From contig NZ_CP139141.1 in assembly GCF_034059295.1 (NCBI RefSeq), positions 4,137,001 through 4,201,000 of the forward strand: a DNA stretch of 64,000 nt, read 5' to 3'. The position numbers and the translations under genes were made by a program. A model generated the notes under the pieces. It saw nothing but the letters and a program-made list of their open reading frames with translations, was not told the origin of the DNA and did no database searches. This DNA comes from Pseudomonas sp. HR96 (GTDB lineage Bacteria > Pseudomonadota > Gammaproteobacteria > Pseudomonadales > Pseudomonadaceae). Below are positions 20,658-51,638 of the stretch, in pieces (the stretch's first letter is position 1; every line of letters begins with the position of its first letter).

Positions 20658-20749
20658 GGTGTGCTCCTGCGTAGTGATTGAACCACTACGCTAGCGGGGC
20701 CGTGACGGGGCAGGTAATCGGAAAATTCCTACAATTGTTTCAGAACCAG

Positions 20750-23235: not shown

Positions 23236-23262
23236 GGTGCGTTCTCCCTGCAAGGTCGATCG

Positions 23263-26873: not shown

Positions 26874-26916
26874 TCGCTGCAACTCCCGCCTGAATGATGG
26901 ATCAATCCGCCTGCTG

Positions 26917-33551: not shown

Positions 33552-33967
33552 ATGTGCCTCCGCGCCAGACCTTCATTAAGGTCGAGGTCCCAATTCAGCG
33601 CGCCTTCGAAATCGGCGTTGCGCACCCGATACTGCACCCGCACCTTGAGCAGGCTGGGCCGGTTGGGGTCCTGTTGCACCTGCACGCTGCTGACCAGCAC
33701 CCGCGGTTCGTCGCGCTCGACGCTTTCGGTGATGCGCGCGGTCAGGCGGCTGACCAGGCCGTCGGTGACGTTCTCGAACATTAACGGCGTCAGGTCGCTG
33801 CCGAACTCCGGGCGCATCACCCGCTCGCCGGCCTGGGTGCTGAAGATGATCCGCAGGCTCTGCTCGATGTCGGCCAGGTCCACTGCCATCTTTGCCCCTT
33901 GCGCCACGCTGAAAGCCACCGGGAAGGCCCAGCCACGACCCAGCACACCACTGTTGTCGGGTTTCAT
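33548..33967 (-). CDS. gp25-like baseplate wedge protein (Afp9-like)
   Basis: A 139-residue GPW/gp25-family protein from the ATG at 33967 (MKPDNSGVLGRGWAFPV), preceded by GAGGTG. The hallmarks are the N-terminal GRGWAFPV, DIEQSLRIIFSTQAGERVMRPEFG (about 32-55; the conserved ILxTxxGERVMxPxFG motif) and RVLVSSVQVQQD. It joins sheath to baseplate in contractile machines. The frame upstream to 34330 runs across the spike gene in another reading frame and is not used. Confidence 0.93.
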   Translation of the reverse strand: MKPDNSGVLGRGWAFPVAFSVAQGAKMAVDLADIEQSLRIIFSTQAGERVMRPEFGSDLTPLMFENVTDGLVSRLTARITESVERDEPRVLVSSVQVQQDPNRPSLLKVRVQYRVRNADFEGALNWDLDLNEGLARRHI

Positions 33968-33975
33968 CCTGCACC

Positions 33976-36308: not shown

Positions 36309-36529
36309 AGGTAGGCCTCACGCAGTGCGGCTCGAACCCTGCGATTGAATTGATGGTCGTCAGCGGTGGCGGTGTCGCCGCGCGCGAGGGTGGGCCGTAA
36401 CTTATCGATGGCCTCGCGCAGCGCACTGTCCAGCTCCTCACGCAGCGCAGCGACCCACTGCGGTTGATCCTCGCCGACGACGCCGACGCGCACTTCGACA
36501 TTCAATTTTTCAATGGTCAGATTGCTCAT
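36305..36529 (-). CDS. Small protein at the Afp6 position
   Basis: A 74-residue, charged protein (MSNLTIEKLNVEVRVGVVGE) overlapping both neighbours by 4 nt. It starts with a short strand, IEKLNVEVRV, similar in character to DUF5908/Afp6 small proteins, followed by a helical stretch EELDSALREAIDKL and ending in RRVRAALREAYL. Position between tube 2 and the Afp7-like gene supports an Afp6 role. The sequence match is weak. Confidence 0.6.
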   Translation of the reverse strand: MSNLTIEKLNVEVRVGVVGEDQPQWVAALREELDSALREAIDKLRPTLARGDTATADDHQFNRRVRAALREAYL

Positions 36530-36999
36530 GTCATCGCCCCCATCATCGACATATCGCGGTAGGCGAATTCGAAGGAATTGATTAGAAACTGGTTACTGTT
36601 GGCGTTCAGCCCCGAGGTGCTCCAGCGCACTGGCGTGGCATCGATCAGGCTCCAGGTCGCCACCGGGGTCTGGGTTTCATCCAGCGCCATGATGGTCATG
36701 TCGATGCCGAACAGGCGGAACGAACCCAGGCCCTGCTGCAGGATGGTGGTCAGTGGCGTGCGCACGATCACCCCACGCTGCAGGGTGACATTGCCATGGC
36801 TTACCTGCAGGGGCAGGTGCAGCATGCCGACGTTGCGTCCACCCTCCACCCGCTTGTCCACGGCCATGCTCTGCGACAGCCCGTCGACGCTCTGGAACTC
36901 GGCGTCCATGGGGTCCGGCACGCCCGGCAGGTAAGACAGCAGCTTGAAATAGAAGCGCACCCGAAAGCGGTGCGACAGCATCGGTGGGAAGTCGATCAT
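36526..36999 (-). CDS. Second inner-tube protein (Afp5-like, gp19 fold)
   Basis: A 157-residue Hcp/gp19-like tube protein. It has the strand-rich pattern FRVRFYFKLLSYLPGVPDPM, AEFQSVDGLSQSM and GGRNVGMLHLPLQVSHGNVT (the family 'G.....LPG....g.itLkRG'-like region), then LQRGVIV and a C-terminal NSFEFAYRDM. Afp5-type proteins initiate the tube on the baseplate. It overlaps the last sheath gene by 4 nt. Confidence 0.9.
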   Translation of the reverse strand: MIDFPPMLSHRFRVRFYFKLLSYLPGVPDPMDAEFQSVDGLSQSMAVDKRVEGGRNVGMLHLPLQVSHGNVTLQRGVIVRTPLTTILQQGLGSFRLFGIDMTIMALDETQTPVATWSLIDATPVRWSTSGLNANSNQFLINSFEFAYRDMSMMGAMT

Positions 37000-38306
37000 G
37001 ACAGCGTACTCCGCGAAGTGATGGCTCGGCTTTCGCCGGTGTCGGGCACATCGTTCATGTTCAGGGTCACCGTCAGCCGAATGAACTCGGCCGGGTAATA
37101 CAGCGCCACCAGCACGTTGATGAGCAACCGACCCTCGATGACGTCTTCACGGGTCATGCTCTCGCCCACGCCGATCTGCACCTGGTAGGCCAGTTCTTCC
37201 TCCTGCCCGGCCAGGCCACCGGACTGCCAAAGGCGGCGTAGCCACATGCCCAGGCCGGACTTGAGCATCAGCCAGGTGATTTCGTTGTTGGGCTCGAACA
37301 CCGAAGCGGCGGCCCGGGCGCGGAGGTTGTTCTGGATGTAGGTGGCCAGCCGGCGAGTCTGCACGTACAGCCCGGGGTCGCCGAGCACCGGCCGGGCCAG
37401 GGTACGGCAGCCCCAGAGTTTCGTGCCGCGGCCGATGAAGGAGCGGATCAGGTTGATAGAAACGCCGTCGGCACTGAACAACCGCTCGCCGTCGCGGTAG
37501 CCGTATTCGGGCTTGAGGATGCTCTTGATATCGGGGCCATTGGCCGGGGCTTTCCATACACCGATATTGCGGTCGGTCAGCTGGATCTGTGCGCAGACTA
37601 CGCCGCAGGGAGCGATGGCAAGGGTCGTGCTGTGTACCAGACTGCGGTCGACGGCGTAATCGCCGAGCAGCCATGGCCACCACGCAGCGCCATGCGAGGC
37701 ACCGTCCGGTAGCGCGTCTTGCAGCCAGCTGCTGCAGGCCAGCGCGCCGGTCAAACTGCGCGGCGCGTCGAGCACCGCGAACAGGCGCGGGTAGCATTCG
37801 CAGGCGGCCAGGGCATTGGCCCAGGCAGTTTGCAGATAAGCCGCCTCATCGTCGGCGAACAACGCCAGGTCGGGGATCGCGACCAGGGTGATGTCGGCGA
37901 TTCGATCGATGCGCGCGAACAAATCCCCGCCGCTGAGGCGTTCAGGCAGATCGGTAACGGCGCTGGCGGCCGCCTCGCTGAAGGTGCCAACCGAGCAGAC
38001 GAAGCAGCCGAGCCCACCGTTGTCGAAATAGTGTCGCAGGGTGTAGTAAAGGCCGCAGCGGTCAGAACGCTTGTCTGCGACCATGGGGGCCGCGCCGAAC
38101 AACTGCTGGAATTCGGCGAGGTCGGCGATCGGCTGCGGCATCGCGCCTTCAACGGCCCTGGCCGGGCTGGGCAGCGGCACCTTCTCGGTGAAACCGATGA
38201 ACACCGGCACTGCCGACGGTACTTCGTAACGGCGCGCGCGCAACGTGACCTGCTGGTACTCGTACCCCGGTTGCAGGTCGCTCGATAGCAAAGAGTGGGC
38301 TGGCAT
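36996..38306 (-). CDS. Sheath-family protein 7 (Afp4-like)
   Basis: A 436-residue divergent sheath paralogue. It keeps the sheath pattern AVPVFIGFTEKV, RHYFDNGGLGCFVCSVG (about 91-107), LWGCRTLARPV and FEPNNEITWLMLKSGLGMWL (C-terminal sheath helix), then GMWLRRLWQSGGLAG and LLINVLVALYYPAEFIRLT. The N-terminus lacks the usual PGVYxEE opening, so its N-terminal arm may be altered. It matches the Afp4 position just before the second tube gene. Afp4-type sheath proteins contact the baseplate. Confidence 0.9.
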   Translation of the reverse strand: MPAHSLLSSDLQPGYEYQQVTLRARRYEVPSAVPVFIGFTEKVPLPSPARAVEGAMPQPIADLAEFQQLFGAAPMVADKRSDRCGLYYTLRHYFDNGGLGCFVCSVGTFSEAAASAVTDLPERLSGGDLFARIDRIADITLVAIPDLALFADDEAAYLQTAWANALAACECYPRLFAVLDAPRSLTGALACSSWLQDALPDGASHGAAWWPWLLGDYAVDRSLVHSTTLAIAPCGVVCAQIQLTDRNIGVWKAPANGPDIKSILKPEYGYRDGERLFSADGVSINLIRSFIGRGTKLWGCRTLARPVLGDPGLYVQTRRLATYIQNNLRARAAASVFEPNNEITWLMLKSGLGMWLRRLWQSGGLAGQEEELAYQVQIGVGESMTREDVIEGRLLINVLVALYYPAEFIRLTVTLNMNDVPDTGESRAITSRSTLS

Positions 38307-38348
38307 GGTCTGTCCTTGGCGTAGGTGACGCCGGCACGATGGGCAAAT

Positions 38349-39719
38349 TCAGCTTGGATCGGCCGACGCCAGGGCGCTGGTCAACTGTTCGGTGAAGACG
38401 ATTTCGATGAACTCCAGCGCGCGCACCGGCGCCATGCCGACCCGCACGACCAACAGTCCGCTGTCGATTTGCGCGGCGGTCATGCTCACGCCCGCGCCGA
38501 CTTGCACGTAGAAGGCTTCGTCGCTGGTTGCCCCGTGCAAGCCGCCCTCGCGCCACAGCCGTTGCAGGTAGCTGCGCAAGGCATTGCGTACGGCGCTCCA
38601 GGTGGTCTCGTTGTTGGGCAGAAACACTGCAAAGCGCAGCGCCTGACGCAGATCCCGGGCGGCAGCATCGAACAGCCGGCTGACCGCCACGTTGAGCCAG
38701 GGCGAGCTGAGCGGGTCGACCATGGTGCGTGCGCCCCAGACCCGCACACCTTCCTCAGGGAAGTCCTTGAGGGCATTGATACGGTTGGCCATCAGGCGCA
38801 TCTGCACACTGGCGCTACCAGGGTTGTGCAGCCCGCTGACCTTGTTCAGCAGCACCCCGGCGGGCGCAGCCCACACGCCTTTGCGACGGTCGATCTGGCA
38901 GTAGACGCCGGCGACCGCAGCGCTGGCATTGAGGGCCACCACCGGGTAGTTGACCTTGAACCACTCGTCTACTGCGCGGCGCAGTTCAAGGTACCGCAGC
39001 GGTTCAGTGGCGCGCAGGTCAGCCAGGGTGCGCGCAGGAAGGTCGTCTGCAGGCGGCAGGCTGACCTGATCATCGGCGGGCAGCACCTCGTAGGGAGTGA
39101 CCACGCCAGGGTGGTACACCGCCGTGCGTTGCGCCGTGGTGGTCGGGCGCGTCACGCCGTCGGCACTGTTGGCGATCAACAGGCCGCCACCTGTCTCTTG
39201 CAGCAGCGGTTCGAGGGCGGCGTACACCACCGCTTCCGTGCCGTCCTGCTCGGTGTAGCAGTACAGGCTGATCTCGGCACAGCGGGCAATTCGCGAAGGC
39301 AATGCCAGCAGCGCGTCGCCATCATCGAGGGCGGGCACGGGCAGCACATAGCAACGACCGCCACCATTGTCGAAATAGTGCCGCACGGCGAACGCGCCGA
39401 GCGCTCTGTCGGTACTCACCCGTGGCGTCGGGTCGAGGGTGACCGTCGCCCGCATCGCTGCGCTGAAGCGCCGCTGGAAATGCACATAGCTGGTGATGGC
39501 GATGCAGGTTTCGCTGCTCGCCAAGGTTCCGTCCAGTTCATGGAAGCGGCCGATGAACACCGGGATCGCCGTGGCGCCGGCGTTGATGCTCAGCGTCGCC
39601 AGGGCGCTCTCTTCCAGGTACAGGCCGGGCACGGCGTGGGCATCGGTGAGCGCCAGCGAGTCCACTGCCAGCTGGCCGGCCCCGCCCAGAGGGCGAGTGT
39701 GCAGCGTCGATTCGGCCAT
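38349..39719 (-). CDS. Sheath-family protein 6
   Basis: A 456-residue sheath paralogue. The ATG at 39719 (MAESTLHTRPLGGAGQL) is 1 nt after the preceding stop and has GGGGGT upstream. Typical sheath sequence: VPGLYLEESALATLSINAGA, ATAIPVFIGRF, RHYFDNGGGRCYVLPVPA, VWGARTMVDPLSSPWLNVAV, SRLFDAAARDLRQALRFAVF, LPNNETTWSAVRNALRSYL, and a C-terminal ALEFIEIVFTEQL. It is similar in layout to proteins 3-5 and so probably a product of tandem duplication. Confidence 0.93.
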   Translation of the reverse strand: MAESTLHTRPLGGAGQLAVDSLALTDAHAVPGLYLEESALATLSINAGATAIPVFIGRFHELDGTLASSETCIAITSYVHFQRRFSAAMRATVTLDPTPRVSTDRALGAFAVRHYFDNGGGRCYVLPVPALDDGDALLALPSRIARCAEISLYCYTEQDGTEAVVYAALEPLLQETGGGLLIANSADGVTRPTTTAQRTAVYHPGVVTPYEVLPADDQVSLPPADDLPARTLADLRATEPLRYLELRRAVDEWFKVNYPVVALNASAAVAGVYCQIDRRKGVWAAPAGVLLNKVSGLHNPGSASVQMRLMANRINALKDFPEEGVRVWGARTMVDPLSSPWLNVAVSRLFDAAARDLRQALRFAVFLPNNETTWSAVRNALRSYLQRLWREGGLHGATSDEAFYVQVGAGVSMTAAQIDSGLLVVRVGMAPVRALEFIEIVFTEQLTSALASADPS

Positions 39720-39720
39720 G

Positions 39721-41058
39721 CTAGACCCCCGCCAGCTGCTGGCTGAACAGCACTTCGATGAACTCGGCAGGGCGCACGGCCGCCATCCCGACCCGTACGA
39801 CGAGTTCGCCGCCAAGGACCTGCTCCTCGGTCATGCTCAACCCCGCCCCAACCTGCACGTAATACGCCTCCTCGGCATTGCGACCGATGAGCCCGCCGTT
39901 GCGCCAAAGGTTGTACAGGTAGCCGCTGATCGCACCACGCACGGCGTTCCAGGTCATTTCGTTGTTGGGCAGGAACACCGCGAACTGCAACGCCCGCTGC
40001 ATGTCCCGCGCGGCGGCGTCGAACAGTCGGCTGACCGGAATGTGCAGCCACAAGGGCGTGGCCGGATCGACGCAGGTACGGGTACCCCAGACCTTGACGC
40101 CTTCGCCGGGAAACGGCTTGAGCGCGTTGATGCGGTTGGCCATGAGCTTCATCTGCACGCTGGGCGAGACCCGTTCGGCGAGGTCGCTCACCGCATTCAG
40201 GCTGACGCCGGCAGGCGCCTTCCACACGCCTTGCTGGCTGTCGATGCGGCAGTACACGCCGGCGATCGCCGGGCTGGCCTTGAGGGTGACCTGCGGGTAG
40301 TCGGTCTTGAGTTTCTCGTCGACTGCCTTGCTCAGCCTTTTGTAGTCGGCAGGCTGGTAGCGCTTGACCAGATCGAGGGTCAGGCGCTCGGTCTCAAGGC
40401 CTGGAATGGTCAGGCCAGTGACCACGATCGAGCGGTCGTCCAGGCGCGAGGAATAGTTCGTCAACAGCGCCGGGTAATAAGTGGCGGTACGCTGCGCGGG
40501 GGTGGTCGGGCGCAGCACGCCGTCAGGGCTGTCGGCAATCAGGAAGCCGTCGCCGGTTTTGTTCAACAGGGTATTCAGCGCGTTGTAGATCGGGTCCAGA
40601 CCCTCGGTGAATTCCGTGGTGCAGTACAGACTGATCTGGGGTTGGTGCGCCAGTATGGCCGCCAGGTTGGCGGTTACCGGCGGCGTAGCCACTGGCAGGA
40701 TGAAGCAGCGGCCGCCGCCATTGTCGAAATACAGGCGCAGGGAGCGTGAGCCAAGTTCCTGGGTGACCGTGACGGTGGCCGCCCCGGCGGCGACAGTGAT
40801 CGTTGCCGACTCGGCAAAGCGCCGCTGGAAGTCGAAGTAGCTGTCGATGGCAATGCAGGCATTGGTACTGGCCGGGGTGCCGTCGAGATTGCGGAAGCTG
40901 CCGATGAACACCGGGATGGCGGTGGCGCCGGCGGGGATGCTGAGAAGCGGGTCGTTGCTTTCTTCGGCGTAGACGCCGGGAGCCTGGACCGAGCTGACGC
41001 GCCTGGGTGCGGCGTCCGTTGGCCGATCGCTGCTGGCATTGTCGATTTCACTGATCAT
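39721..41058 (-). CDS. Sheath-family protein 5
   Basis: A 445-residue sheath paralogue starting at the ATG at 41058 (MISEIDNASSDRPTDAAPRR); a few in-frame upstream codons (GTG, ATG) are alternatives because AGGAG lies 10 nt before. Core motifs: QAPGVYAEESNDPLLSIPAG, TAIPVFIGSF, LYFDNGGGRCFILPVA, VWGTRTCVDPATPLWLHI, VSRLFDAAARDMQRALQFAV, LPNNEMTWNAVRGAISGYLY, AAVRPAEFIEVLFSQQL. The same 'NDPLLSIPAGATAIPVFIG' string appears in protein 4, whose C-terminal domain is its closest relative by eye. Confidence 0.93.
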   Translation of the reverse strand: MISEIDNASSDRPTDAAPRRVSSVQAPGVYAEESNDPLLSIPAGATAIPVFIGSFRNLDGTPASTNACIAIDSYFDFQRRFAESATITVAAGAATVTVTQELGSRSLRLYFDNGGGRCFILPVATPPVTANLAAILAHQPQISLYCTTEFTEGLDPIYNALNTLLNKTGDGFLIADSPDGVLRPTTPAQRTATYYPALLTNYSSRLDDRSIVVTGLTIPGLETERLTLDLVKRYQPADYKRLSKAVDEKLKTDYPQVTLKASPAIAGVYCRIDSQQGVWKAPAGVSLNAVSDLAERVSPSVQMKLMANRINALKPFPGEGVKVWGTRTCVDPATPLWLHIPVSRLFDAAARDMQRALQFAVFLPNNEMTWNAVRGAISGYLYNLWRNGGLIGRNAEEAYYVQVGAGLSMTEEQVLGGELVVRVGMAAVRPAEFIEVLFSQQLAGV

Positions 41059-41085
41059 CACATTCACGCTCCTGTCGCGCTGCAC

Positions 41086-43692
41086 TCACGCCGTCGCCAA
41101 CATCTGGCTGAACACCACTTCGATGAACTCCACCGGCCGCAACGCCGCCATACCCACATGCACGATCATCCGGCCTTCGAGGATGTCGTCGTCGCTCATG
41201 GTCAGGCCGCGGCCGATCTGCACGTAGTACGCCTCCTCGGCCGTGGCGCCGAGCAGGCCGCCGTCGCGCCAGAGCTTGTCGAGGTAGTTGCGGATGGCCG
41301 CGCCGACGGCGGTCCAGGTGCTGGCATTGTTCGGCAGGAACACCGCAAATTGCATGGCTCGACGAATATCGCGGGCGGCAGCGTCGAACAGGCGGCTGAC
41401 GTTGATGTGCAGCCACAACGGCGTCTCTGGGTCTTCGAGGGTACGCGCCCCCCAGACCTGGGCACCCTCATTGGCACTGAAACGGATGCGGTTGATGTTG
41501 TGCTCCATCAGCTCCAGCGGCTTGAAGTCAGCTGGCTGGACCAGCCCGCGCACGTTGTTCAACTGCATGCCGCCGGGGGCTTTCCACACGCCACGCTGGG
41601 CATCGGTACGGCAGTAGACGCCGGCCACGGCGGCGCTGGCGAGCAGCTTGACGTTGGGGTAGTTGGCCTGGTGCCAGTCGTCGAGCGCCTTATTGATGCG
41701 TATGTAGGTGGCCTTGTCGTCGGCCTTGATCAGGTCCAGGGTAATGCGGGCGCCTTCGGCAGGAGGAGCGCCGATGAAGGTGTGGCCCTGGACCGTGACG
41801 TCGCGGTCTGCCGAGCGCCCACTGTAGGCAGTGCTCAGGGCGGGGCTATACACCGCCGTGCGTTGCGCCGTGGTGGTCGGTACGGTGACCCCATCGACGC
41901 TGTCCGCAATCAGGAAGCCGTCGCCGACGTTGCGCAGCAAAGGGTCCAGCGCCGAGTACAGATCCTGCTGGTTGCCGTCATCCTCGGTGCAGACGAACAA
42001 AGTGATCTGCGGGAAACGCCGAATCTTGGCAGGGATCGCCATCAATTCCGTGGCGTCGGCCGGGTTTTTGATCGGCAGGATGAAGCAGCTGCCGCCGCCG
42101 TTGTCGAAGTAGAGTTGCAGGGCGCGGGAGCCGCGGGCAGCCGTGTGCTCGATTGCGATGCTGCCATTTGCTGCAAGCGTGACCAGGGTACTTTGCGAGG
42201 CGCCGAAGCGCCGGTTGAAGTCGGTGAAGCTGCTGACCTCGATGCAGCTGGCGTTACTCAGGAGATCGGCTTGCTGGTCGCGGAATACGCCGATGAAGAC
42301 CGGGATGGCCGTGGCCCCGGCGGGGATGCTGAGCAGGGGGTCGTTGCTTTCGATGGCGTAAACGCCGGGGACGCCGCCTGTGGGGCTTGGATTCCCCTCT
42401 CCCTCTTCAGGTCCCTCAGGTTCCTCAGGTCCCCCGGGCTCTTCAGGTCCCCCGGGCTCTTCAGGCTCTTCAGGCTCTTCAGGTTCGCCGTAGAGGTAAA
42501 CCTTACTGGCGACAGGCGTATCGTTCGACCTCAGGGCACCAGTCGCACCGATCGCCACCAAGCGACCGTCGGCACTCATGCTTAGGCTACGACCGTAATG
42601 GCCGTATGCCACTGGGCCAGCCACCGCAGTCTTGGCCTGGTCCCTCCACAAAAACTCATAAATGAAGCCGTATTCGTAATTGACGTTCGATCTCGTCTCG
42701 CCGTAGCTTCCTATCAACAATACGTCGCCTTCATCATCAAAGGCCAGTGCATCACCCATGTGCGCATAGGGTTCCGTGTTACCAGGAATCATTCGAGGAC
42801 CTAGGGCGACCCAGAGCTCGTCACTCAGTTGAAAACAGTAGACCGCCCCCCAGTCCGGCCCTCGACTATGGCTCACGCCCACAGCTCCTACCGCCAAGCG
42901 ATTTGCAGGCCCGTTCAACAGCACGTTGGAGCCGAATCGATCATTGCTTCGATCGGGCTCGCCGGCATCGTCTGACTCGTCGGCAAACAAGATCGACGAG
43001 GGCGCCGACGCCCAGTCTTGCGACGTGTTGGTGAACACCAGCACACGTCCAGCACTTTCCAGAAGCTCGGTAGTAAAGCCTGGATGACCAATCGCAAGCA
43101 CGCCGCCCGCTGCATCCAGGCTGACCGAGAAGCCAAACTCGGTACCGGACTCGACATCAAGCGCAGCTATTGGCCACTCGACGATATCGCTGCCTCCTGT
43201 GAACACATATGCGGTATCAGCGCCGGGTGCCCCCACCGCGAGAACTTCACCATCGAGCGACAATGCCAGTGACGATCCAAACCGGTCGCCTGGCGTACTG
43301 GATTCTGGATGCACAGTAGCTTCAGGGCGCCAAATGCCGGCACTGCGGCGGTACAGGTAGACGGCGCCAGGGGTGTCTTGCTCAGCATGGGCACCCACTG
43401 CAATCAAGCTGCCGTCGCCGCTGGTAGCCACGCTGATGCCAAAGCCCACACCGTTTTCCGGTACCAGTACTTGTACAAGGTCCCATGTGCCGGCTTTGGG
43501 CACGTAGATCTCGACTTGATTAAGCTCGATAGCCGCAACTACCAACACATAGCCGTCGGTACTGATGTGTACGGCATTACCGTACTCGCACGAAGGAGTC
43601 TCCCCTTCGGGTACGGTGAGTGTCTGTACCAGGGTCGGCAGAGTAAAGGTCGATACCTTCGGCTTGAGCGCCTTGCGACGAGCTAGGGCCAT
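41086..43692 (-). CDS. Sheath-family protein 4: seven-repeat FG-GAP-like propeller fused to a sheath
   Basis: An 868-residue fusion. Residues ~37-400 hold seven repeats starting near 37, 84, 138, 186, 253, 312 and 366 (for example FGSSLALSLDGEVLAVGAPG, the literal FG...GAP motif), each followed by VYLY/VYxF strands: the pattern of an integrin-alpha-like seven-bladed beta-propeller. An acidic Pro-Glu-Gly linker (about 403-435) joins it to a complete sheath domain (441-868) with VPGVYAIESNDPLLSIPAGA, LYFDNGGGSCFILPIK, VWGARTLEDPETPLWLHINV, FAVFLPNNASTWTAVG and RPVEFIEVVFSQML. The frame is continuous. The propeller would project from the sheath, perhaps as an adhesin or ligand. This function is inference; the domain count is direct reading. 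Confidence 0.88.
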   Translation of the reverse strand: MALARRKALKPKVSTFTLPTLVQTLTVPEGETPSCEYGNAVHISTDGYVLVVAAIELNQVEIYVPKAGTWDLVQVLVPENGVGFGISVATSGDGSLIAVGAHAEQDTPGAVYLYRRSAGIWRPEATVHPESSTPGDRFGSSLALSLDGEVLAVGAPGADTAYVFTGGSDIVEWPIAALDVESGTEFGFSVSLDAAGGVLAIGHPGFTTELLESAGRVLVFTNTSQDWASAPSSILFADESDDAGEPDRSNDRFGSNVLLNGPANRLAVGAVGVSHSRGPDWGAVYCFQLSDELWVALGPRMIPGNTEPYAHMGDALAFDDEGDVLLIGSYGETRSNVNYEYGFIYEFLWRDQAKTAVAGPVAYGHYGRSLSMSADGRLVAIGATGALRSNDTPVASKVYLYGEPEEPEEPEEPGGPEEPGGPEEPEGPEEGEGNPSPTGGVPGVYAIESNDPLLSIPAGATAIPVFIGVFRDQQADLLSNASCIEVSSFTDFNRRFGASQSTLVTLAANGSIAIEHTAARGSRALQLYFDNGGGSCFILPIKNPADATELMAIPAKIRRFPQITLFVCTEDDGNQQDLYSALDPLLRNVGDGFLIADSVDGVTVPTTTAQRTAVYSPALSTAYSGRSADRDVTVQGHTFIGAPPAEGARITLDLIKADDKATYIRINKALDDWHQANYPNVKLLASAAVAGVYCRTDAQRGVWKAPGGMQLNNVRGLVQPADFKPLELMEHNINRIRFSANEGAQVWGARTLEDPETPLWLHINVSRLFDAAARDIRRAMQFAVFLPNNASTWTAVGAAIRNYLDKLWRDGGLLGATAEEAYYVQIGRGLTMSDDDILEGRMIVHVGMAALRPVEFIEVVFSQMLATA
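42388..42486. repeat. In-frame short tandem repeat in the linker of sheath protein 4
   Basis: The plus strand shows repeats of CTCTTCAGG (9 nt, Pro-Glu-Glu on the coding strand) and an 18-nt unit CCCCCGGGCTCTTCAGGT occurring twice. All units are multiples of 9 nt, so copy-number change would lengthen or shorten the PEE/PGG linker without a frameshift. Confidence 0.75.
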
Positions 43693-43739
43693 GACGGTCC
43701 ATCTCCTGATTCCAGTGTAGGGTTATCGGCATTCAGGCA

Positions 43740-46316
43740 TCAGCCTGCTTGCAGCACCTGGCTGAACACCACCTCGATAAACTCCACCGGGCGCAGCGCG
43801 GCGAGGCCGACATGGACGATCAAACGGCCTTCGAGGAGGTCTTCGGCGCTCATGGTCTCGTTGCCGATCTGCACGTAGTAGGCCTCGTCGCTGGTGGCGC
43901 CGCGCAGGCCGCCGTCGCGCCAGAGCTGATACAGGTAGGCATTGATGGCATTGCGCACGGTGTTCCAGGTGATGGCGTTGTTGGGCATGAACACCGCCAC
44001 TTGCAGGGCGCGCTTGATGTCGCGGGCGGCGGCGTCGAACAGGCGGCTGACGTTGATGTGCAGCCACAGCGGCAGCTCGGGCGCCTCCTGGGTGCGTGCC
44101 CCCCACACCCGGACGCCCTCGCCGGGTGCGTCGTAGAGGCGGTTGATACGGTTCTCGATCAGCTTGTCGACCACCGCCAGCTTGGGCCGTGGGTACAGCG
44201 CGCGAACGTTGTTGAGCGAAGGGCCGGCCGGCGCGTGCCAGATGCCGAGGTTGGCGTCCGTGCGGCAGTACACTCCCGCGACGGCGGCGCTGGCGAGCAG
44301 GCGCACGACGCCCTTTTCGGCGTAGTGCGTGTCCAGGGCCTCGCTGATGGTCTCGTAGAGGTCCTGGTCCTGGGCCTTGACCTGCGCCAGGGTGACGCGC
44401 TCATCGTTCTCGGACTCGAAGCCGACCACGTCGATGTCTTCGTCGGCAGCCCGGGCTGAATAAGCGGTTTCCAGCGCCGGGTAATAGACCGCCGTGCGTT
44501 GATCGGTGGTGGTCGGACGATGCTCGCCATCGTAGGAATCGGCGATCAGAAAACCGTCGCCGACGTTGCGCAGCAAGGGGTCGAGGGCATCGCAGGCCGG
44601 GTGGTATTTATCGGTCTCGGTGTCCAGGCGTTCGGTGACCACGTACAAGGTGATGTCGGGGCAGCGTCTGATCTTGCTCACCATCGCCGCCAACTCGGTC
44701 GGGTTGGTCTGGTCGTGCAACGGCAGGATGTAGCAGCGGCCACCGCCGTTGTCGAAGTACAGCTGCAAGGCCAGGGAGCCGAGGTCGGCGGTGTCTTCGA
44801 CGCCGGGGACACCGTTGGTCAAGGTGACGGTGGTCGATTGGGACGGTCCGTAGCGGCGGCGGAAGTCGCTGAAATTGGCGATTTCGATGCAGGACCCGTT
44901 GCTCAGAAGCTCGCCGAACTTGTCGCGGAACACCCCGATGAACAGCGGGATGGCAGTGACGCCGGCAGGGATGGCCAACAGGGGTTGGTTGCTTTCGAGG
45001 GCGTAGACGCCGGGGACCGTGCGATTGGATTGGTTATCACTGCCCTCGTCCGCAGGAGGCTGCGACTCGCCGAAAAGGTAGACCTTGCTTACATCGGGCT
45101 TTTTAGGCTCCCCGATATGCAACATGGTGCCAGTCGAACTGACAGCTGCACACTCACCGTTCGCACTCAAAGCAACTGCATGTCCAAAGTGCGAGTGCGC
45201 GGGAAGCGTGGCAACAGTAGGTGCGGTGAATAGGGTTCTAGCACTTCCCCAAACGCACCAGTAGGCGAGGCCATATTTCCCGCTGTAATTGGTAGTACCG
45301 GCGCCTGGCGCACCAATCAGCAACAGCTCACCATCATGGGTGATTGCCAACGCTCTACCAAAATGTGGCGTCCGATCGATATGCTGGCCGACCTGAGGAG
45401 CAGATGTAGCTGCCCAGGAGCCATCTTCGGCGAGCTGGAAGAAATACACTGCTCCGTAGTTCAGATACGTGTCACTAGTACTCCCCCTTACTCCATCTGC
45501 TCCCACGACCAGACGGTCACCAACTCCAGACAATGCGACCGTATAACCGAACAGATCGTTGGCAAAACCATCAGGATCGCTAGCATGACCGACCTGTTGA
45601 GCCAACAGTTCAGTCCCTTCCTGTGTCCATGCACCTGATGTCTTGGTGAACACCAGTACCCGACCTGCTTGTTCCACATCATGGGTGTTCGCCCCAGGAT
45701 GCCCCACTGCCAGTACCGTTCCATCAGCATTCAAACTCACCGAGCGCGCAAAATCCTGGCCGGCGGTCTCGCCTTCAATTTCAAATTCAGACGCCGAAAA
45801 GTTTCCGCCTATGGATTTGTACACATAGAAGGCACCCTTGGTGCCCAAGGCCTGCGGCGCACCGACAGCCAGCGTCAGGCCATCGCTGGCCATCGACAAT
45901 GCAGCGCCAAATCCGTCGCCTGTCTCATCCTGGCTTAGCGTTGCAAGCAGGCTCCATGCTTCACCTCGGCGCCTATAGACATAGACCGCACCGGCCTCTT
46001 CGGCGCCAATATGCGCGCCCACTGCAATCAAGCTGCCGTTACGGTTGACCGCCACCGTCGCACCAAACTCGGTCCCCTCGGCACAATTGAGCTCACTGTG
46101 CGGGCGCCAATCGCCCTCATCCGAGACATACACCGACACTCGATTACTTTCCCTGGCACCGATCACCAGCACCGAACCATCGGCGCTGATCTGCAGCGAA
46201 CTGCCAAACTCGGCATCCGCCTCGATATCTTCAGGAGCCACCAACGGCGCCTGAGCGCTCAGCGCAGGCAAGGTTACGGCGGTACGCTTAGCAACAACCT
46301 GGCGGGCATGGGCCAT
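43740..46316 (-). CDS. Sheath-family protein 3: seven-repeat propeller fused to a sheath
   Basis: An 858-residue protein (ATG at 46316, 10 nt after GGAG; an upstream TTG at 46325 is too close to the site). Its propeller repeats begin near residues 37, 84, 136, 189, 256, 319 and 377, for example FGAALSMASDGLTLAVGAP. The first two positions match those of the neighbouring fusion exactly. A short polar linker SQPPADEGSDNQSN leads to a sheath domain (about 434-858) with VPGVYALESNQPLLAIPAG, LYFDNGGGRCYILPLHD, VWGARTQEAPELPLWLHINV, VFMPNNAITWNTVRNAINAY and RPVEFIEVVFSQVL. The two fusion genes are adjacent paralogues with very different linkers, implying that the propeller was acquired before duplication. 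Confidence 0.88.
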   Translation of the reverse strand: MAHARQVVAKRTAVTLPALSAQAPLVAPEDIEADAEFGSSLQISADGSVLVIGARESNRVSVYVSDEGDWRPHSELNCAEGTEFGATVAVNRNGSLIAVGAHIGAEEAGAVYVYRRRGEAWSLLATLSQDETGDGFGAALSMASDGLTLAVGAPQALGTKGAFYVYKSIGGNFSASEFEIEGETAGQDFARSVSLNADGTVLAVGHPGANTHDVEQAGRVLVFTKTSGAWTQEGTELLAQQVGHASDPDGFANDLFGYTVALSGVGDRLVVGADGVRGSTSDTYLNYGAVYFFQLAEDGSWAATSAPQVGQHIDRTPHFGRALAITHDGELLLIGAPGAGTTNYSGKYGLAYWCVWGSARTLFTAPTVATLPAHSHFGHAVALSANGECAAVSSTGTMLHIGEPKKPDVSKVYLFGESQPPADEGSDNQSNRTVPGVYALESNQPLLAIPAGVTAIPLFIGVFRDKFGELLSNGSCIEIANFSDFRRRYGPSQSTTVTLTNGVPGVEDTADLGSLALQLYFDNGGGRCYILPLHDQTNPTELAAMVSKIRRCPDITLYVVTERLDTETDKYHPACDALDPLLRNVGDGFLIADSYDGEHRPTTTDQRTAVYYPALETAYSARAADEDIDVVGFESENDERVTLAQVKAQDQDLYETISEALDTHYAEKGVVRLLASAAVAGVYCRTDANLGIWHAPAGPSLNNVRALYPRPKLAVVDKLIENRINRLYDAPGEGVRVWGARTQEAPELPLWLHINVSRLFDAAARDIKRALQVAVFMPNNAITWNTVRNAINAYLYQLWRDGGLRGATSDEAYYVQIGNETMSAEDLLEGRLIVHVGLAALRPVEFIEVVFSQVLQAG

Positions 46317-46359
46317 GGTGATCAATCTCCAATCGACTATGAATCACAAACCAATGGCA

Positions 46360-47652
46360 TCACGCCGCCGACAACACCTGACTGAACACCACCTCGATAA
46401 ACTCCGCCGGCCGCAACGCCGCCATCCCTACGTTCACATTCAAGATTCCTTCGAGCACGTCTTCATCGGTCATCGTCAGCCCATGGCCGACCTGTACGTA
46501 GTAGGCCTCCTGCGCGGTGCTGCCCTTGAGCCCGCCCTGGCGCCAGATGTTGTACAGGTAGGCGTCGATGGCCGTGCGCACGGTGGCCCAGGTGGCGCCG
46601 TTGTTGGGCATGAACACGGCCACGCGCATGGCGCTGCGGATGTCGCGGGCGGCGGCGTCGAACAGGCGCATGACCTGGATGTGCAGCCACAGCGGCGTGC
46701 TCGGCGCGACCATGGTGCGTGCGCCCCATACCCGCACGCCCTCGCCGGCAAAGGCCTTGATCGCGTTGATGCGGTTTTCCAGCAACTTGTCGAGGACACC
46801 CGTAGTGACCGGGCGCTCGACGCCGCTGACGTTGTTCAGCGAAGCGCCGGCGGGGGCTTGCCAGGGGCCGCGGTTGGCGTCGGTGCGGCAGTACACGCCG
46901 GCGATGGCGGGGCTGGCGGGCAGGTGCACAGGGTTGGCGGCGGCGTAGGCTTCCAGGTGCTGGAAGATCTGGCCATAGAGTGCTTCGTTGCTGGTTTTCA
47001 AAGAATCCAGCGTGACCGGTGAAGCCGCCCCGTCGATGGTCACCTTCAACTCGTCATCAGCGGGCCTTGGGCTGTACTGGGTGATCAGGCCTGGATAGTA
47101 GACGGCGGTACGTTGCGCGACGGTAGCGGGTTTCTCGTCACCGTTCTTTGAGTCAGCGATCAGGAAGAGACCACCCATTTCCTGTTGCAGCCTGCTCAGT
47201 GATTCATACACCGCCTTCGAAGTCGCAGTGGAGACCGTCGCGCACATCAAGGTGATATCGCTGTAGCGTTCGATGATCTCCGGCGCACCGAGAAGGTCTG
47301 CCTCCACCTTGAATGGCAGGATGTAGCAACGACCGCCGCCGTTGTCGAAATACAGCTGGATGCAGCGCCAGTTGATGTCCAGCGCACCGGTGACAGCTGC
47401 CAAGGTCCAGGCGCCAGGCTGGCCCACCACTGACGTCACCGCCAAGGTCGCCTCGGTCGGCGTCGAAAACTGCTCGGTGAAATCAAACCAGCTGGCCACT
47501 TCGATGCACTTGCCCAGCGCGATCGCCACGCCGTCCTTGCCCTTGAAATTACCGATGAACACCGGCACTGCGGTCGCGCCGGAGGGCACTGAGAGCAAGG
47601 GCAGGTTGCTTTCTTCGACGTAGACGCCGGGCACGGTATAGGTAACTGGCAT
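46360..47652 (-). CDS. Sheath-family protein 2
   Basis: A 430-residue stand-alone sheath protein with the standard layout: YTVPGVYVEESNLPLLSVPS, ATAVPVFIGNF, LYFDNGGGRCYILPFK, VWGARTMVAPSTPLWLHIQV, LFDAAARDIRSAMRVAVFMP, NNGATWATVRTAIDAYLYNI and AALRPAEFIEVVFSQVLSAA. A strong GAGGA site precedes the ATG. It closely resembles the sheath domains of proteins 3-5 and lacks the propeller, and is likely a major or alternative sheath subunit. Confidence 0.94.
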   Translation of the reverse strand: MPVTYTVPGVYVEESNLPLLSVPSGATAVPVFIGNFKGKDGVAIALGKCIEVASWFDFTEQFSTPTEATLAVTSVVGQPGAWTLAAVTGALDINWRCIQLYFDNGGGRCYILPFKVEADLLGAPEIIERYSDITLMCATVSTATSKAVYESLSRLQQEMGGLFLIADSKNGDEKPATVAQRTAVYYPGLITQYSPRPADDELKVTIDGAASPVTLDSLKTSNEALYGQIFQHLEAYAAANPVHLPASPAIAGVYCRTDANRGPWQAPAGASLNNVSGVERPVTTGVLDKLLENRINAIKAFAGEGVRVWGARTMVAPSTPLWLHIQVMRLFDAAARDIRSAMRVAVFMPNNGATWATVRTAIDAYLYNIWRQGGLKGSTAQEAYYVQVGHGLTMTDEDVLEGILNVNVGMAALRPAEFIEVVFSQVLSAA

Positions 47653-47702
47653 GATCGATTCCTCGGGCGGAGCGCATCAGTGAATGAGCAGGCAGGCGGC
47701 AC

Positions 47703-48920
47703 TCAAGCGGCGGGCATGTTCATGATCTGGGTGAAGCGCAGCACGATGAACTCGGCGGGTCGGGTGATCGCCAGACCGACATGAATGATCATCTTGCCTT
47801 CGAGCAGGTCCGCCTGAACCATGGTTTCGTCGAGCCCGACCTGAACGAAGAAGGCCTCGTTCTCGGTGCCGCCCATCAGGCCGCCCTGCTCCCAGATGCG
47901 TCGCAGGTAGCTGGTGATGGCACCTCTGGCGCGTTGCCAGGTCGGCTGGTGGTTGGGCTCGAAGATCAACGGGCGCAGGGCCTTGCGGATATCCTTTTGC
48001 GCGTTGAGCATCAGCCGCCGCACGGGGATGTATTTGTTTTCAGGTGTGTTGTCGCGCGTGCGCACGCCCCAGATCACCGACGGCCGCCCCGGGAAGGCGC
48101 GGATCATGTTCAGCGCTGGCTCCATGTAGTCGGCCTGGTCGCTGTCGCTGATGTGGATCAACGGCGTGACGCCTCCGCGCAGGTCGAAGTTGGCGGCGGC
48201 ATGCCAAGGGCCATGCAGCCCATCGGTTTCGCAGATGGCCCCGGCGACGGCGGCGCTGGGTGGAATTTTGTTCTCGCCTGCCCAGCTCGCCTCCAGCCAT
48301 GGGTAGAAGGCCGCGATATTGGGACCTTCAGGGAAGCCAGTCGGGAGGGGCAGTGGGCCGACGGGGCCGTCGAGCAGCCCAAAGCGGGTCTGGAAAGGCT
48401 TCTCGCACAGCGCTGCGATTTCCCCCGCGAGGGCCGCAGGCCCTGTACCGGCTTGGACCACCAGGGTGATGTCTTCGCGAGACTCGATTTCCTCCGCCCA
48501 GCCCTCGCCGGTGGAAACGGTATAAAACAGCCCGCCACCGTTATCCAGGTAGGTCTTGACCGCCAGGTGCAGGACATTCCCGCGGTCCAGCACGAATTCG
48601 CTGCCATCGGCAGGGCCGAATTCGCGGGTGAATGTCACCCAGTTGGGAATGCGGTGGACGATCGCGTCATTATCCAGCACCTGCGCGCCATCAGTCCCCG
48701 CAGCCGGCTGTGCAGCCTCGGCCACCCCTTTGCGGGACTTGGCCTTGCCCTTCTTGTCCGGTTTGCTTTGCTCGTTCTCTGCCGGCCCATCGAGCAACGA
48801 TCCGGTCGGATGCGCATACAGGAACGCCGGCACTGCGCTGGCGCCGCTGGCGACCGTGAGAAAGGTACCGGGTGCTTCCCAAACATAGACGCCGGGTGTG
48901 GGTTTGGTCATTGTGGTCAT
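47703..48920 (-). CDS. Sheath-family protein 1 (Afp2-like)
   Basis: A 405-residue sheath paralogue, more divergent than proteins 2-6: PTPGVYVWEAPGTFLTVASG, SAVPAFLYAHPTGSLL, TYLDNGGGLFYTVSTGEGWA, VIWGVRTRDNTPENKYIPVR, RLMLNAQKDIRKALRPLIFE, PNHQPTWQRARGAITSYLRR and a C-terminal TRPAEFIVLRFTQI. A Lys-rich hydrophilic insert (about 48-70: ENEQSKPDKKGKAKSRKG) follows the first strand and could be surface-exposed. It directly follows the tube gene, the Afp2 place. It is the simplest candidate for the major sheath. Confidence 0.93.
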   Translation of the reverse strand: MTTMTKPTPGVYVWEAPGTFLTVASGASAVPAFLYAHPTGSLLDGPAENEQSKPDKKGKAKSRKGVAEAAQPAAGTDGAQVLDNDAIVHRIPNWVTFTREFGPADGSEFVLDRGNVLHLAVKTYLDNGGGLFYTVSTGEGWAEEIESREDITLVVQAGTGPAALAGEIAALCEKPFQTRFGLLDGPVGPLPLPTGFPEGPNIAAFYPWLEASWAGENKIPPSAAVAGAICETDGLHGPWHAAANFDLRGGVTPLIHISDSDQADYMEPALNMIRAFPGRPSVIWGVRTRDNTPENKYIPVRRLMLNAQKDIRKALRPLIFEPNHQPTWQRARGAITSYLRRIWEQGGLMGGTENEAFFVQVGLDETMVQADLLEGKMIIHVGLAITRPAEFIVLRFTQIMNMPAA

Positions 48921-48975: not shown

Positions 48976-49428
48976 TCAATCGACGAACGTCAAATCGAAT
49001 CGGTCGGCGGCAAAGTTGATGGTTTCAACATAGAAGGCCGCATTGGTGGCATCGAAAGTTGCCGCCGTGACCCCGGTCGGAAAACAATTGATCATCGTGT
49101 AGCTCAAGAACACCGTGGTGCCTTGCTCGTCGGTCAGGTCGACGGTGACGTCCTTCTTCTCGATGCGGTTCATGCGAGAATCGGCGAACCACTTCCAGAA
49201 ATAATTGCGCGGCGCAACCAGCGCACGGCCCAGCGAAAAGTCCATATCGCTCAGCAGCCCCGGCGCCCGCCAGATACCGCCGCGGCCGTCGCGATAGGTC
49301 ACCGCCGCGCGGCTTGGCGAGGGCGGGGTGATGGTCGAACAGGAGAGCACTTCACTGCCGAAGCGCACGATGAAACGCGCTGTCTGCAAGGGGGAGGTTT
49401 TTTCGACTTCTTCGGCGGTTTGGGCCAT
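48976..49428 (-). CDS. Inner-tube protein 1 (Afp1-like)
   Basis: A 150-residue Hcp/gp19-fold tube protein from the ATG at 49428 (MAQTAEEVEKTSPLQTARFI), with GGAG upstream. A longer reading to 49482 has no support. Tube motifs include ARFIVRFGSEVLSC, APGLLSDMDFSLGRALVAPR, YFWKWFADSRMNRIEKKDVT (typical gp19 family 'FxxWxxxxxxgxxxrkdvtv'), then NCFPTGVTAATFDATNAAFY and VETINFAADRFDL. First gene of the operon and highly expressed in such systems, in keeping with its many copies per particle. Confidence 0.93.
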   Translation of the reverse strand: MAQTAEEVEKTSPLQTARFIVRFGSEVLSCSTITPPSPSRAAVTYRDGRGGIWRAPGLLSDMDFSLGRALVAPRNYFWKWFADSRMNRIEKKDVTVDLTDEQGTTVFLSYTMINCFPTGVTAATFDATNAAFYVETINFAADRFDLTFVD

Positions 49429-49482
49429 GTCAGCAACTCCGCAATGAATTGACCGGAAACTTCCGGGGCAGGTCACAAGCAA

Positions 49483-49720
49483 CTTTCATGGTCAAAGTTA
49501 GTTGCGATGCCGGGCACTGACAAGGCCCCCGGGGCGAAATAATTGAAAGCTTTCTTACAATTAACACCGGGTGAATCCTGAACAAAAATCACAACTTTGA
49601 AAGTAAATTTTCGTTACTCTATCCGTGACATTCGGCGCGGCCACCCGCGCCCTCACCGGGCTGCAGGCCGAGCGGGCAAAAACGTGACCGAGCGGTCGAT
49701 TTCACACGCCCCGGTCATTT
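49483..49720. promoter_or_regulatory. A/T-rich leader and promoter region of the injection operon
   Basis: No gene. The stretch 49540-49625 is much A/T-richer than the rest and contains a short dyad (GAAAGCTTTC, 49546-49555). It must include the leftward promoter of the operon. No clean sigma70 pair was visible, so a stress-type or activator-dependent promoter is possible. A 66-codon open frame at 49702-49902 is judged accidental. Confidence 0.5.
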
Positions 49721-49748
49721 ATGTAGTGACCTGAAAATATCACTACAT
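49721..49748. promoter_or_regulatory. Perfect 9-bp dyad ATGTAGTGA-N10-TCACTACAT
   Basis: Perfect arms at 49721-49729 and 49740-49748, half-site centres 19 bp apart (about two helical turns), as expected for a dimeric regulator. It lies in the divergent region between the injection operon and the 109-aa gene, 5 bp before a -35 hexamer for the rightward promoter. The regulator is unknown. Confidence 0.7.
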
Positions 49749-49753
49749 TTTTC

Positions 49754-49782
49754 TTGACGACCCCTTCAGCCTTTAGCATGAT
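49754..49782 (+). promoter_or_regulatory. Sigma70-like promoter for the 109-aa gene
   Basis: TTGACG (5/6) at 49754-49759 and CATGAT (4/6) at 49777-49782 with a 17-bp spacer. The leader to the ATG at 49972 would be about 180 nt. Confidence 0.5.
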
Positions 49783-49971
49783 GGCCCCGTCTCCCCGATC
49801 GGGAGCACTGGCAAAAGGTATTGCGCAGGGCCTGGCGAATAGCCGCTTCCTGCCATGTGTTCTGCCCACAAGGCACATTGATTCCGCCTTCGAGCCGCCC
49901 ATCTACGGCTCTTGAATGCCATGTTTGCGATGCACCACAGACAGATCAATTCACGCTAAAGGGGCTCCACC

Positions 49972-50301
49972 ATGAACTTGAATCAACAACCGACCATCAA
50001 CGACCTGGCCCGCCTGTTCGCCGCGCGCAAGGACACCCTCGACAGCCACATCCTGTGGGTCTGCGCAAGCGGCGAGGTGAAGATCGAACCCTTGACCCCG
50101 CATGCGGCCGAGGATGATTTCCAACAGAGCCGCCCGACCATGCGCGCGCGCCTGCGCACCTACCGCCGCGGTGCTGGCTATGTGGGCCGCAAGGCCGCCG
50201 CCGACCACGATTTTCTTGGCCGGGTGTTGCATACGTTGAACAGCGAATGGCCGGCGGTACGCCAGGCGGACGGCGTTCGGGTTGTCGACAAATATTGCTG
50301 A
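49972..50301 (+). CDS. Small basic protein of unknown function (109 aa)
   Basis: A 109-residue protein, MNLNQQPTINDLARLFAARK, preceded by AAGGGG at 7 nt. It has a short N-terminal helix, then strands LWVCASGEVKIEPLT and a basic RARLRTYRRGAGYVGRKAA segment, and no signal peptide. It is divergent from the injection operon and shares its control region with the dyad above. I do not recognise the family, so any regulatory link to the injection system is speculation from context. Confidence 0.7.
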   Translation: MNLNQQPTINDLARLFAARKDTLDSHILWVCASGEVKIEPLTPHAAEDDFQQSRPTMRARLRTYRRGAGYVGRKAAADHDFLGRVLHTLNSEWPAVRQADGVRVVDKYC

Positions 50302-50349
50302 TGCTATCGCGGCAGGTAGTAAATAAACCTAGGCATTCGGTGTTGCTCC

Positions 50350-50425
50350 GCTCGCCAGCTTCGCCGGCTCCTACGCCACCTGTGGCATCACCCGGATTGG
50401 CGTAGGAGCCGGCGCGGCTGGCGAG
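50350..50425. repeat. Inverted REP pair (BIME-like)
   Basis: A forward core at 50350-50377 (GCTCGCCAGCTTCGCCGGCT then CCTACGCC) and its inverted copy at 50399-50425 are separated by 21 nt. Same family as the 13.3-13.6 kb cluster. Confidence 0.9.
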
Positions 50426-50506
50426 GGCAACACCTCGCTATCTGGGTGGATCATCTGCTGGTATCGCGGCCCATGGCCAATCAAGCCTGGCGTCCGGGGC
50501 CGCCCC

Positions 50507-50534
50507 GCTCGCCAGCTGCGCCGGCTCCTACGCC
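50507..50534 (+). repeat. REP palindrome unit
   Basis: Forward core with one change (CCAGCTGCGCC). With the pair just upstream it fills most of the 374-nt gap before the MoxR gene; the flanks CCACCTGTGGC are also shared between copies (50376 and 50533). No promoter for the MoxR operon could be assigned with confidence. Confidence 0.9.
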
Positions 50535-50675
50535 ACCTGTGGCCATCGCGGACTTGCCATTTCACCCACCGATTCCTAACCACCCCCTGAATGGATTAAA
50601 GTAGTGGCCCCCGGCCAAGTACCCAGACGCACGCTCTCCCAAGTGCGCGGGCCTTCCTTTCAGGAACCCTCATCG

Positions 50676-51635
50676 ATGGAACATCGTGAAGCGCTAATCG
50701 CGCTGCGAACCTTTCTTTCCACGCAGATCCTCGGCCAGGAAAAGCTCGTCGAGCGCCTGCTCATCGTGCTGCTCGCCGACGGCCATATGCTGGTGGAAGG
50801 CGCGCCGGGGCTGGCCAAGACCAAGGCCATCAAGGAGCTGGCCGAGGGCGTCGAGGCACAGTTCCATCGCATCCAGTTCACCCCCGACCTGCTGCCCGCC
50901 GACATCACCGGCACCGAGATCTATCGCCCGGAAACCGGCAGCTTCGTGTTCCAGCAAGGGCCGATCTTCCACAACCTGGTGCTCGCCGACGAAATCAACC
51001 GGGCGCCAGCCAAGGTGCAATCGGCGCTGCTCGAAGCCATGGCCGAGCGCCAGGTCAGCGTCGGGCGCAGCACCTACAACCTGTCGCCGCTGTTTCTGGT
51101 GATGGCCACGCAGAATCCCATCGAGCAGGAGGGCACCTATCCCCTGCCCGAGGCCCAGCTCGACCGCTTCCTGATGCACGTGAAAATCGGCTTCCCGGAC
51201 GCCGCCGTCGAGCGGCGTATCCTGCAACAGGCGCGGGGCGAGGCGCTCAACGGCGAGACCAAGCCGGAAAAACGCGTCAGCCAGCAGGCGATCTTCGCCG
51301 CGCGCAAGGAGATCCTCGGCCTTTATATGGCCGACGCGGTTGAGGAGTACCTGGTGCAGCTGATCATGGCCACGCGCACGCCCAGCAAGTTCGACTCGGA
51401 AATGGCCGAGTGGATCGCCTATGGCGCCAGCCCGCGCGGCTCGATCGCTCTGGACCGCTGCGCGCGCGCCCACGCCTGGCTGGCCGGGCGCGACTTCGTC
51501 AGCCCCGAGGACATCCAGGCGGTGCTGTTCGACGTGTTGCGCCATCGCATCATCCTGTCATTCGAGGCCGAAGCGGCCGGAATCGATCAGGACCGCGTAG
51601 TGCAGCGCATCCTCGACGTCGTGGCCGTGGCCTGA
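50676..51635 (+). CDS. MoxR-family AAA+ ATPase
   Basis: A 319-residue AAA+ chaperone-type ATPase from the ATG at 50676 (MEHREALIALRTFLSTQILG). Walker A EGAPGLAKTK (42-49), Walker B LVLADEINRAPAKVQSALLE, sensor 1 MATQNPIEQEGTYPLPEAQL and arginine-finger region DRFLMHVKIG are all typical. MoxR proteins work with VWA-domain partners to mature or remodel metal-enzyme or envelope complexes. It heads a six-gene operon with DUF58, DUF4381, two VWA proteins and BatD, with overlapping or nearly overlapping genes. Confidence 0.93.
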   Translation: MEHREALIALRTFLSTQILGQEKLVERLLIVLLADGHMLVEGAPGLAKTKAIKELAEGVEAQFHRIQFTPDLLPADITGTEIYRPETGSFVFQQGPIFHNLVLADEINRAPAKVQSALLEAMAERQVSVGRSTYNLSPLFLVMATQNPIEQEGTYPLPEAQLDRFLMHVKIGFPDAAVERRILQQARGEALNGETKPEKRVSQQAIFAARKEILGLYMADAVEEYLVQLIMATRTPSKFDSEMAEWIAYGASPRGSIALDRCARAHAWLAGRDFVSPEDIQAVLFDVLRHRIILSFEAEAAGIDQDRVVQRILDVVAVA

Positions 51636-51638
51636 GGC

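Follow-up and report, generated by a model that had tools for sequence, protein, structure and literature searches.

Target recognition by contractile injection machines is credited to their tail fibres. The closest described counterparts of the extracellular contractile injection system (eCIS) analysed here are the PVC of Photorhabdus (6j0n, 9qgl/9qgp) and the AFP of Serratia (6rao, 6rbn), which have their main parts in common with it, known in our case from genes. In the PDB, a Pvc3-type sheath protein occupies six chains of the PVC entry 6j0n, presumably as one ring, and twelve chains across two PlPVC1 entries, while Afp3 is found in five AFP entries, the helical trunk (6rbn, 6rc8) among them. 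Pvc11 likewise occupies six chains of 6j0n. The Pvc3-type sheaths of PVC and AFP are 440 to 466 aa long and Pvc11/Afp11 607 to 905 aa, in each case too short for a propeller beside the protein's own match, whereas the cluster described below encodes propeller-bearing Pvc3-type sheaths of 858 to 868 aa and a propeller-bearing Pvc11 of 1125 aa.

The window, a 64,000-nucleotide stretch of the genome of Pseudomonas sp. HR96 (contig NZ_CP139141.1), holds on its minus strand a cluster (20750-49482) that, judged by its genes, is a PVC/AFP-type eCIS set with tubes, sheath types 2, 3 and 4, spike, tip, gp25, Pvc11, Pvc12, fibre, AAA ATPase, tape measure and cap. It begins with an inner tube protein (gp19/Pvc1-like, 48976-49482), followed by seven sheath genes: one of Pvc2 type (47703-48920; a long branch in the sheath tree, clade support 99/95), five tandem copies of Pvc3 type (46360-47652; S_B, 43740-46316; S_A, 41086-43692; 39721-41085; 38349-39815), and one of Pvc4 type (36996-38306). 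Two of the five Pvc3-type copies, S_A and S_B, bear a propeller; the other sheath proteins have none. Exactly three sheath frames were present in the fetched stretch of 38 of 56 related loci, compared with the seven counted here (36996-48920). Further along lie a second tube protein of the gp19 family (36526-36999, Pvc5-like by position), a CIS_tube protein (35523-36308, Pvc7-like by position), the spike/hub (Pvc8-like, 33976-35532), a gp25-like baseplate protein (Pvc9-like, 33548-34330), the spike tip (CIS_spike_tip, Pvc10-like, 33126-33551) and the Pvc11-type baseplate protein (29699-33076). The Pvc12-like baseplate protein (26917-29673) matched Pvc12 of 6j0n_P with an E value of 1e-178 and gave no propeller match; both it and Pvc11 match their PVC/AFP counterparts. 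The set is completed by two fibre genes, an AAA ATPase (23263-25344, Pvc15-like by position), a cap protein (Pvc16_N, 22252-23253) and a tape measure protein (CIS_TMP, Pvc14-like, 20750-22372).

The two fibres, of 287 aa (26139-27002) and 239 aa (25375-26094), each combine a PlPVC1 fibre tip, matching residues ~260-434 of the 434-aa fibre 9qgo_A, with an N-terminal fibre docking end that matches residues ~21-55 of the fibre construct 8on5. Their lengths leave little room for the middle of the PlPVC1 fibre, and the particle thus probably has two short fibres. No effector family was found among the Pfam-scanned ORFs of the cluster and its flanks (19519-20750 and 49483-51639).

The spacing of the flanking genes suggests that the cluster arrived as an insertion. 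A marker within the gene at 14500-19356, which we take to encode NAD-glutamate dehydrogenase, lies a computed 35.2 kb from the DUF58 gene at 51639, a distance that was 4.0 to 8.3 kb in 16 of 18 congeners, 16.5 kb in one and ~490 kb in another. A 1631-aa open frame on the plus strand (14479-19374), which runs antisense to the 1618-aa minus-strand frame of this dehydrogenase gene, has no Pfam match and is probably a by-product of GC-rich coding. Outside the eCIS cluster, the window also encodes a lactonase-type seven-bladed propeller protein (62915-63898, minus strand; PF10282, E 1.7e-94).

An earlier note on this DNA had described two sheath proteins with an N-terminal FG-GAP propeller, and the open reading frames, the Pfam matches and the S_A model all bear this description out. 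S_A (868 aa) consists of an N-terminal propeller (~16-403), an acidic Pro/Glu/Gly linker of ~40 residues and a Pvc3-type sheath domain (~442-868). In S_B, 858 aa long from its ATG or 861 aa if an upstream TTG is the start, the propeller (~35-416) is joined by a linker of ~17 residues to the sheath domain (~434-858). Both proteins belong to FG-GAP_2 (PF14312), with repeated units and scores above the curated cut-off of 23: S_A matched with E 3.4e-23 and 82 bits and S_B with E 7.9e-25 and 87.2 bits, each in five stretches and far beyond chance. A Phage_sheath_1C match follows C-terminally in both, in agreement with the claim that a full sheath domain comes after the propeller. Reading the sequences ourselves, we recovered the seven repeats per protein that had been reported, the first two of each starting at residues 37 and 84. 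The repeats had also been said to carry the literal FG-GAP motif, and here the wording was too strong: FG opens 4 of the 7 units in S_A (the rest being YG, YG and MG) and 6 of 7 in S_B (the rest FA), and GAP is present in 1 of 7 and 2 of 7, respectively. Our own reading also found a sequence resembling a ribosome-binding site upstream of each of these adjacent open frames.

A check proposed at the outset, structure prediction followed by comparison with integrin alpha, came out in favour of the propeller. In the predicted S_A model, residues 16-403 have a propeller-like strand pattern and the seven-bladed fold of the integrin alpha propeller; a structure search returned integrin-alpha propellers as the best match, other seven-bladed propellers being matched as well. 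The remainder of the model matches Pvc3-type sheaths, namely Pvc3 (E 2e-74), the PlPVC1 Pvc3-type protein (E 4e-81) and Afp3 (E 3e-70). Residues 420-453 of the linker have a pLDDT below 50, and the linker looks flexible in the model, whose pTM of 0.55 does not fix the relative orientation of the two domains. The likeness to integrins is one of fold: identity to the integrin alpha beta-propeller is ~19%, and the propellers of S_A and S_B are joined to a sheath, whereas that of integrin alpha is joined to leg domains. The integrin alpha propeller carries calcium-binding loops of the form D-x-[DN]-x-[DN]-G. This loop was found in none of 11 eCIS propellers and none of seven bacterial FG-GAP proteins, in a search run without an integrin positive control. 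Those seven bacterial FG-GAP_2 proteins, some of which are labelled 'integrin' by their sources, are 25 to 34% identical to the eCIS propellers over the aligned parts.

A third propeller of the cluster, which the earlier note had passed over, is inserted near the N-terminus of Pvc11 (~57-430; FG-GAP_2, 61.3 bits), the only gene of its type in the cluster. All five FG-GAP_2 matches in the 5.87-Mb genome (E up to 0.001) fall in S_A, S_B and Pvc11. With a mean pLDDT of 63.7 the Pvc11 model is weak, and no integrin chain was among the best 50 structure matches listed for its propeller, which speaks neither for nor against integrin likeness there. At 28 to 29% identity to S_A and S_B and 25 to 32% to the seven free FG-GAP proteins, the Pvc11 propeller is no closer to the former than to the latter, so that the argument that one cassette was used for both sheath and baseplate is weak for this genome; in the propeller tree the Pvc11 propeller was left unplaced.

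Sequence searches recovered further fusions. P0003 (partial, 632 aa) and P0121 (829 aa) have a propeller followed by a sheath, as in S_A and S_B, while P0002 (855 aa) has the reversed order, with the sheath N-terminal and the propeller C-terminal. P0240 and P0241 are Pvc11 proteins whose propeller occupies an internal loop. We took P0002 and P0241 to lie on one contig, both coming from a source whose longest contig measures 76,408 bp. Precomputed annotation placed both domains only in P0001 (S_B) and P0002 among the matches listed in one search (120 of 964), P0003 being cut off, and only in P0001 and P0121 among those listed in a second (120 of 160), where P0002 was not among the matches listed. 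Since these searches scored the candidates with the most shared words, the census is incomplete. With a Collimonas protein described below, the total is six sheath-propeller fusions on five contigs or genomes. The stop-free frames and the similar fusions on the P0003, P0121, P0002 and Collimonas contigs led us to reject an assembly or gene-calling artefact.

When 56 Pvc11 loci of named genomes were gathered with Pvc11 as the query and scanned for propellers with a home-made profile, only that of Collimonas humicola (L032) had a sheath propeller. The propeller is thus not a common feature of these sheaths, nor are the repeats a standard eCIS sheath domain, a possibility the earlier note had raised against its own reading. 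C. humicola has one propeller on a sheath protein and two on Pvc11, a 1761-aa stop-to-stop frame, at an N-terminal site and in the internal loop; all five FG-GAP_2 matches of its genome lie within these two eCIS genes. Its fused sheath gene (L032:6424-9114) lies amid the baseplate genes, between those for spike and gp25, and its reading frame seems to be shifted close to the C-terminus. A 239-aa fibre-like frame is present there too. In two Mycetohabitans loci (L064 and L071), the C-terminal part of a ~1630-aa Pvc11 (L064:9713-14602, L071:9719-14602) weakly resembles a propeller, a further propeller position, with none of the three sheath frames in either locus carrying one. An FG-GAP-like unit is visible at this end in both loci, and in L064, the one run against Pfam, the same end gave weak WD40-type matches below the curated cut-offs.

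Every sheath-propeller locus with a readable Pvc11 has a propeller on that protein as well (3/3: the window, Collimonas L032 and P0002/P0241). The Mycetohabitans loci, with a propeller-like part on Pvc11 and bare sheaths, indicate that a baseplate propeller can occur alone, which counts against strict coupling. The attachment sites vary between the two ends of the sheath and between N-terminal, internal or both positions in Pvc11, so that what is conserved is the presence of the domain and not one particular joint. Genome scans yielded little more. A first scan of a genome collection with the three N-terminal fusions as query found no relative, and scans with a fusion profile found no further fusion in sets of 57, 148 (round Collimonas), 398 (genus) and 369 (class) genomes, which overlap and each include the centre genome, with at most six candidates scored per genome in the set of 148 and at most two in those of 398 and 369. 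Long sheath frames in the class scan (e.g. 863, 882 and 912 aa) matched only in their sheath part. On a 34,700-bp contig filed under a fungus (Apophysomyces sp. BC1034), P0247 is a 1940-aa protein that unites tube, hub, tip, gp25 and Pvc11 segments; the DNA may stem from an endosymbiont and the long chain may be an artefact of gene calling.

A tree of 38 sheath sequences, from which the partial P0003 was left out, resolved three groups that we named after their Photorhabdus members, and all five propeller fusions placed in it are of Pvc3 type. S_A is sister to S_B (100/98); P0121 clusters with the unfused copies at 39721 and 38349 (97/96); and the Collimonas fusion pairs with an unfused copy from its own genome (98/96), P0002 lying beside the two (95/90). 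The reversed domain order of P0002 implies at least two separate fusions, and the tree suggests three or four, with losses remaining possible. In alignment A4, propeller segments of two rows were misaligned over the sheath, and these 2 of 31 rows were removed for A5; an alignment that took in free FG-GAP proteins as well (A3), in which propellers seemed to be placed on sheath columns, was discarded.

Of 34 outside FG-GAP proteins, the propeller tree included the 7 whose match formed one stretch longer than ~300 residues. The propellers of P0002 and P0241 are 83% identical and form a supported pair (98/92), and the Collimonas sheath propeller is nearest, among the propellers compared, to the one in the internal loop of the Collimonas Pvc11 (49%; 100/98). 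Such close kinship within one source suggests that cassettes were copied between sheath and baseplate genes, and the two kinds of propeller may perhaps share a ligand; these sequences are compatible with a single origin of all eCIS propellers but do not establish it. Between S_B and P0003, the propellers are 65% identical over 397 residues and the sheaths 66% over the 44% held by P0003, so that by these alignments the two domains are conserved to a similar degree.

By sequence and prediction, two of the five Pvc3-type sheath paralogs and Pvc11 each bear a seven-bladed FG-GAP propeller on a tether or loop. We propose, with a probability of roughly 0.58, that these are exposed, multivalent adhesion domains of the lower sheath and baseplate that aid the fibres before firing. 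Between sheath and tube there is probably too little space for a domain of ~40 kDa, and with tethers of ~12 to 40 residues the propellers would be displayed on the outside, around the lower sheath and baseplate of the assembled particle. Assuming one ring of six for each of S_A and S_B and six copies of Pvc11, a particle would carry at least 18 propellers, and more if the sheath rings recur up the trunk as Afp3 does. The decorated sheath imagined in the earlier note is accordingly backed as far as the fusion of propellers to sheath goes; its extent is less certain because, with Pvc3-type protein in six chains of PVC and Afp3 also in the trunk, each gene may supply one ring or many. The propellers would bind many copies of a ligand on the target, or on matrix, supplementing the two short fibres, and this multivalent hold would engage the baseplate before firing. 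Alg11 offers a precedent by analogy: the cage of AlgoCIS has two putative carbohydrate-binding modules, proposed as a second receptor contact after the fibres (PMC8894135, PMC13314943). A bolder form of the proposal, which we put forward tentatively as less likely than not, is that a sub-group of these machines gained a second recognition system on the machine body through repeated fusion of propeller cassettes to sheath and baseplate: at least 18 integrin-like propellers would have to engage a ligand at lower sheath and baseplate before firing, the fibres being reduced to short tips. The Mycetohabitans loci make this form somewhat less likely.

Several points weigh against adhesion. The fibre tips are retained, so that a binding device is already present, and beta-propellers serve as scaffolds too. 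The ends of the sheath protein help to link its subunits, which makes outside display an assumption. PMC8894135 describes this linkage as a 'handshake'. If both sheath ends share in it, N- and C-terminal fusions might place their propellers near the same spot.

The scaffold property underlies the best-surviving alternative, which we nevertheless consider unlikely: a propeller collar on the lower sheath and Pvc11 would clamp baseplate, sheath and folded-back fibres, setting the firing threshold and binding the machine and not a target. The co-occurrence of sheath and Pvc11 propellers in all three readable loci suits such a collar, as do the six Pvc3-type chains in PVC baseplate entries and the folding of AFP and PVC fibres back onto the sheath (PMC8894135, in the part available). 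A fixed joint, however, would hardly permit the domain to shift among N-terminus, C-terminus and internal loop, the S_A linker appears flexible in the model, and only one of the 56 related loci has a sheath propeller. Decidedly improbable, to our minds, is a tethering role away from any target, in which the propellers would fasten particles to the surface of the producer, to matrix or to one another in an array. Relatives do use baseplate add-ons in arrays and for membrane anchoring (PMC8894135; PMC8894136), but in those systems arrays were put down to the gp7-like part of Alg12 and anchoring in the membrane to a cage site of Alg11 homologues, and Pvc12 of the present cluster has no propeller match. 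That the fusions are functionless accretions on redundant paralogs, with the particle built from unfused copies, is scarcely credible despite the seven sheath genes, the apparent frame defect in Collimonas and the rarity of fusions in the scans, given two adjacent open frames, each preceded by a sequence resembling a ribosome-binding site, a propeller conserved like its sheath, separate fusions in differing orders and another propeller on the sole Pvc11.

Adhesion by sheath and baseplate propellers, which we favour, bears on the question of how binding leads to firing. A binding-type domain placed on both parts, in an order that varies among bacteria, offers a natural test of whether contacts of the body and baseplate enter into recognition, and if the fused proteins enter the particle, a sheath subunit can bear a domain of ~40 kDa at either end. 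FG-GAP proteins have not been described with contractile injection in the literature searched, a body that leaves most subscription papers outside its scope, and nothing on sheath propellers turned up there. Extracellular contractile injection, sheath and beta-propeller coincided in that literature only in a Geobacter transcriptome, with one mention of each, while the papers that name integrin alongside such injection systems and a sheath were an effector study and a base-editing study.

Compared with PVC and AFP, the fibres of this cluster are shorter. The nearest parallel to its Pvc11 is in the AlgoCIS of Algoriphagus, where the Pvc11 homologue also contains a putative ligand-binding domain, according to the available part of PMC8894135. 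The domain of Alg11 has a carbohydrate-binding fold and belongs to a closed cage round the spike, inserted at the tip of domain III, whereas the window Pvc11 has its seven-bladed propeller at another site, close to the N-terminus. In P0240, P0241 and Collimonas, the internal propeller comes where the variable middle of Pvc11 stops, which would be roughly the place at which the AlgoCIS cage domain ends. On the sheath, Alg2 of AlgoCIS has outward extra domains III and IV and, in the text available, no N-terminal propeller of the kind that S_A and S_B carry.
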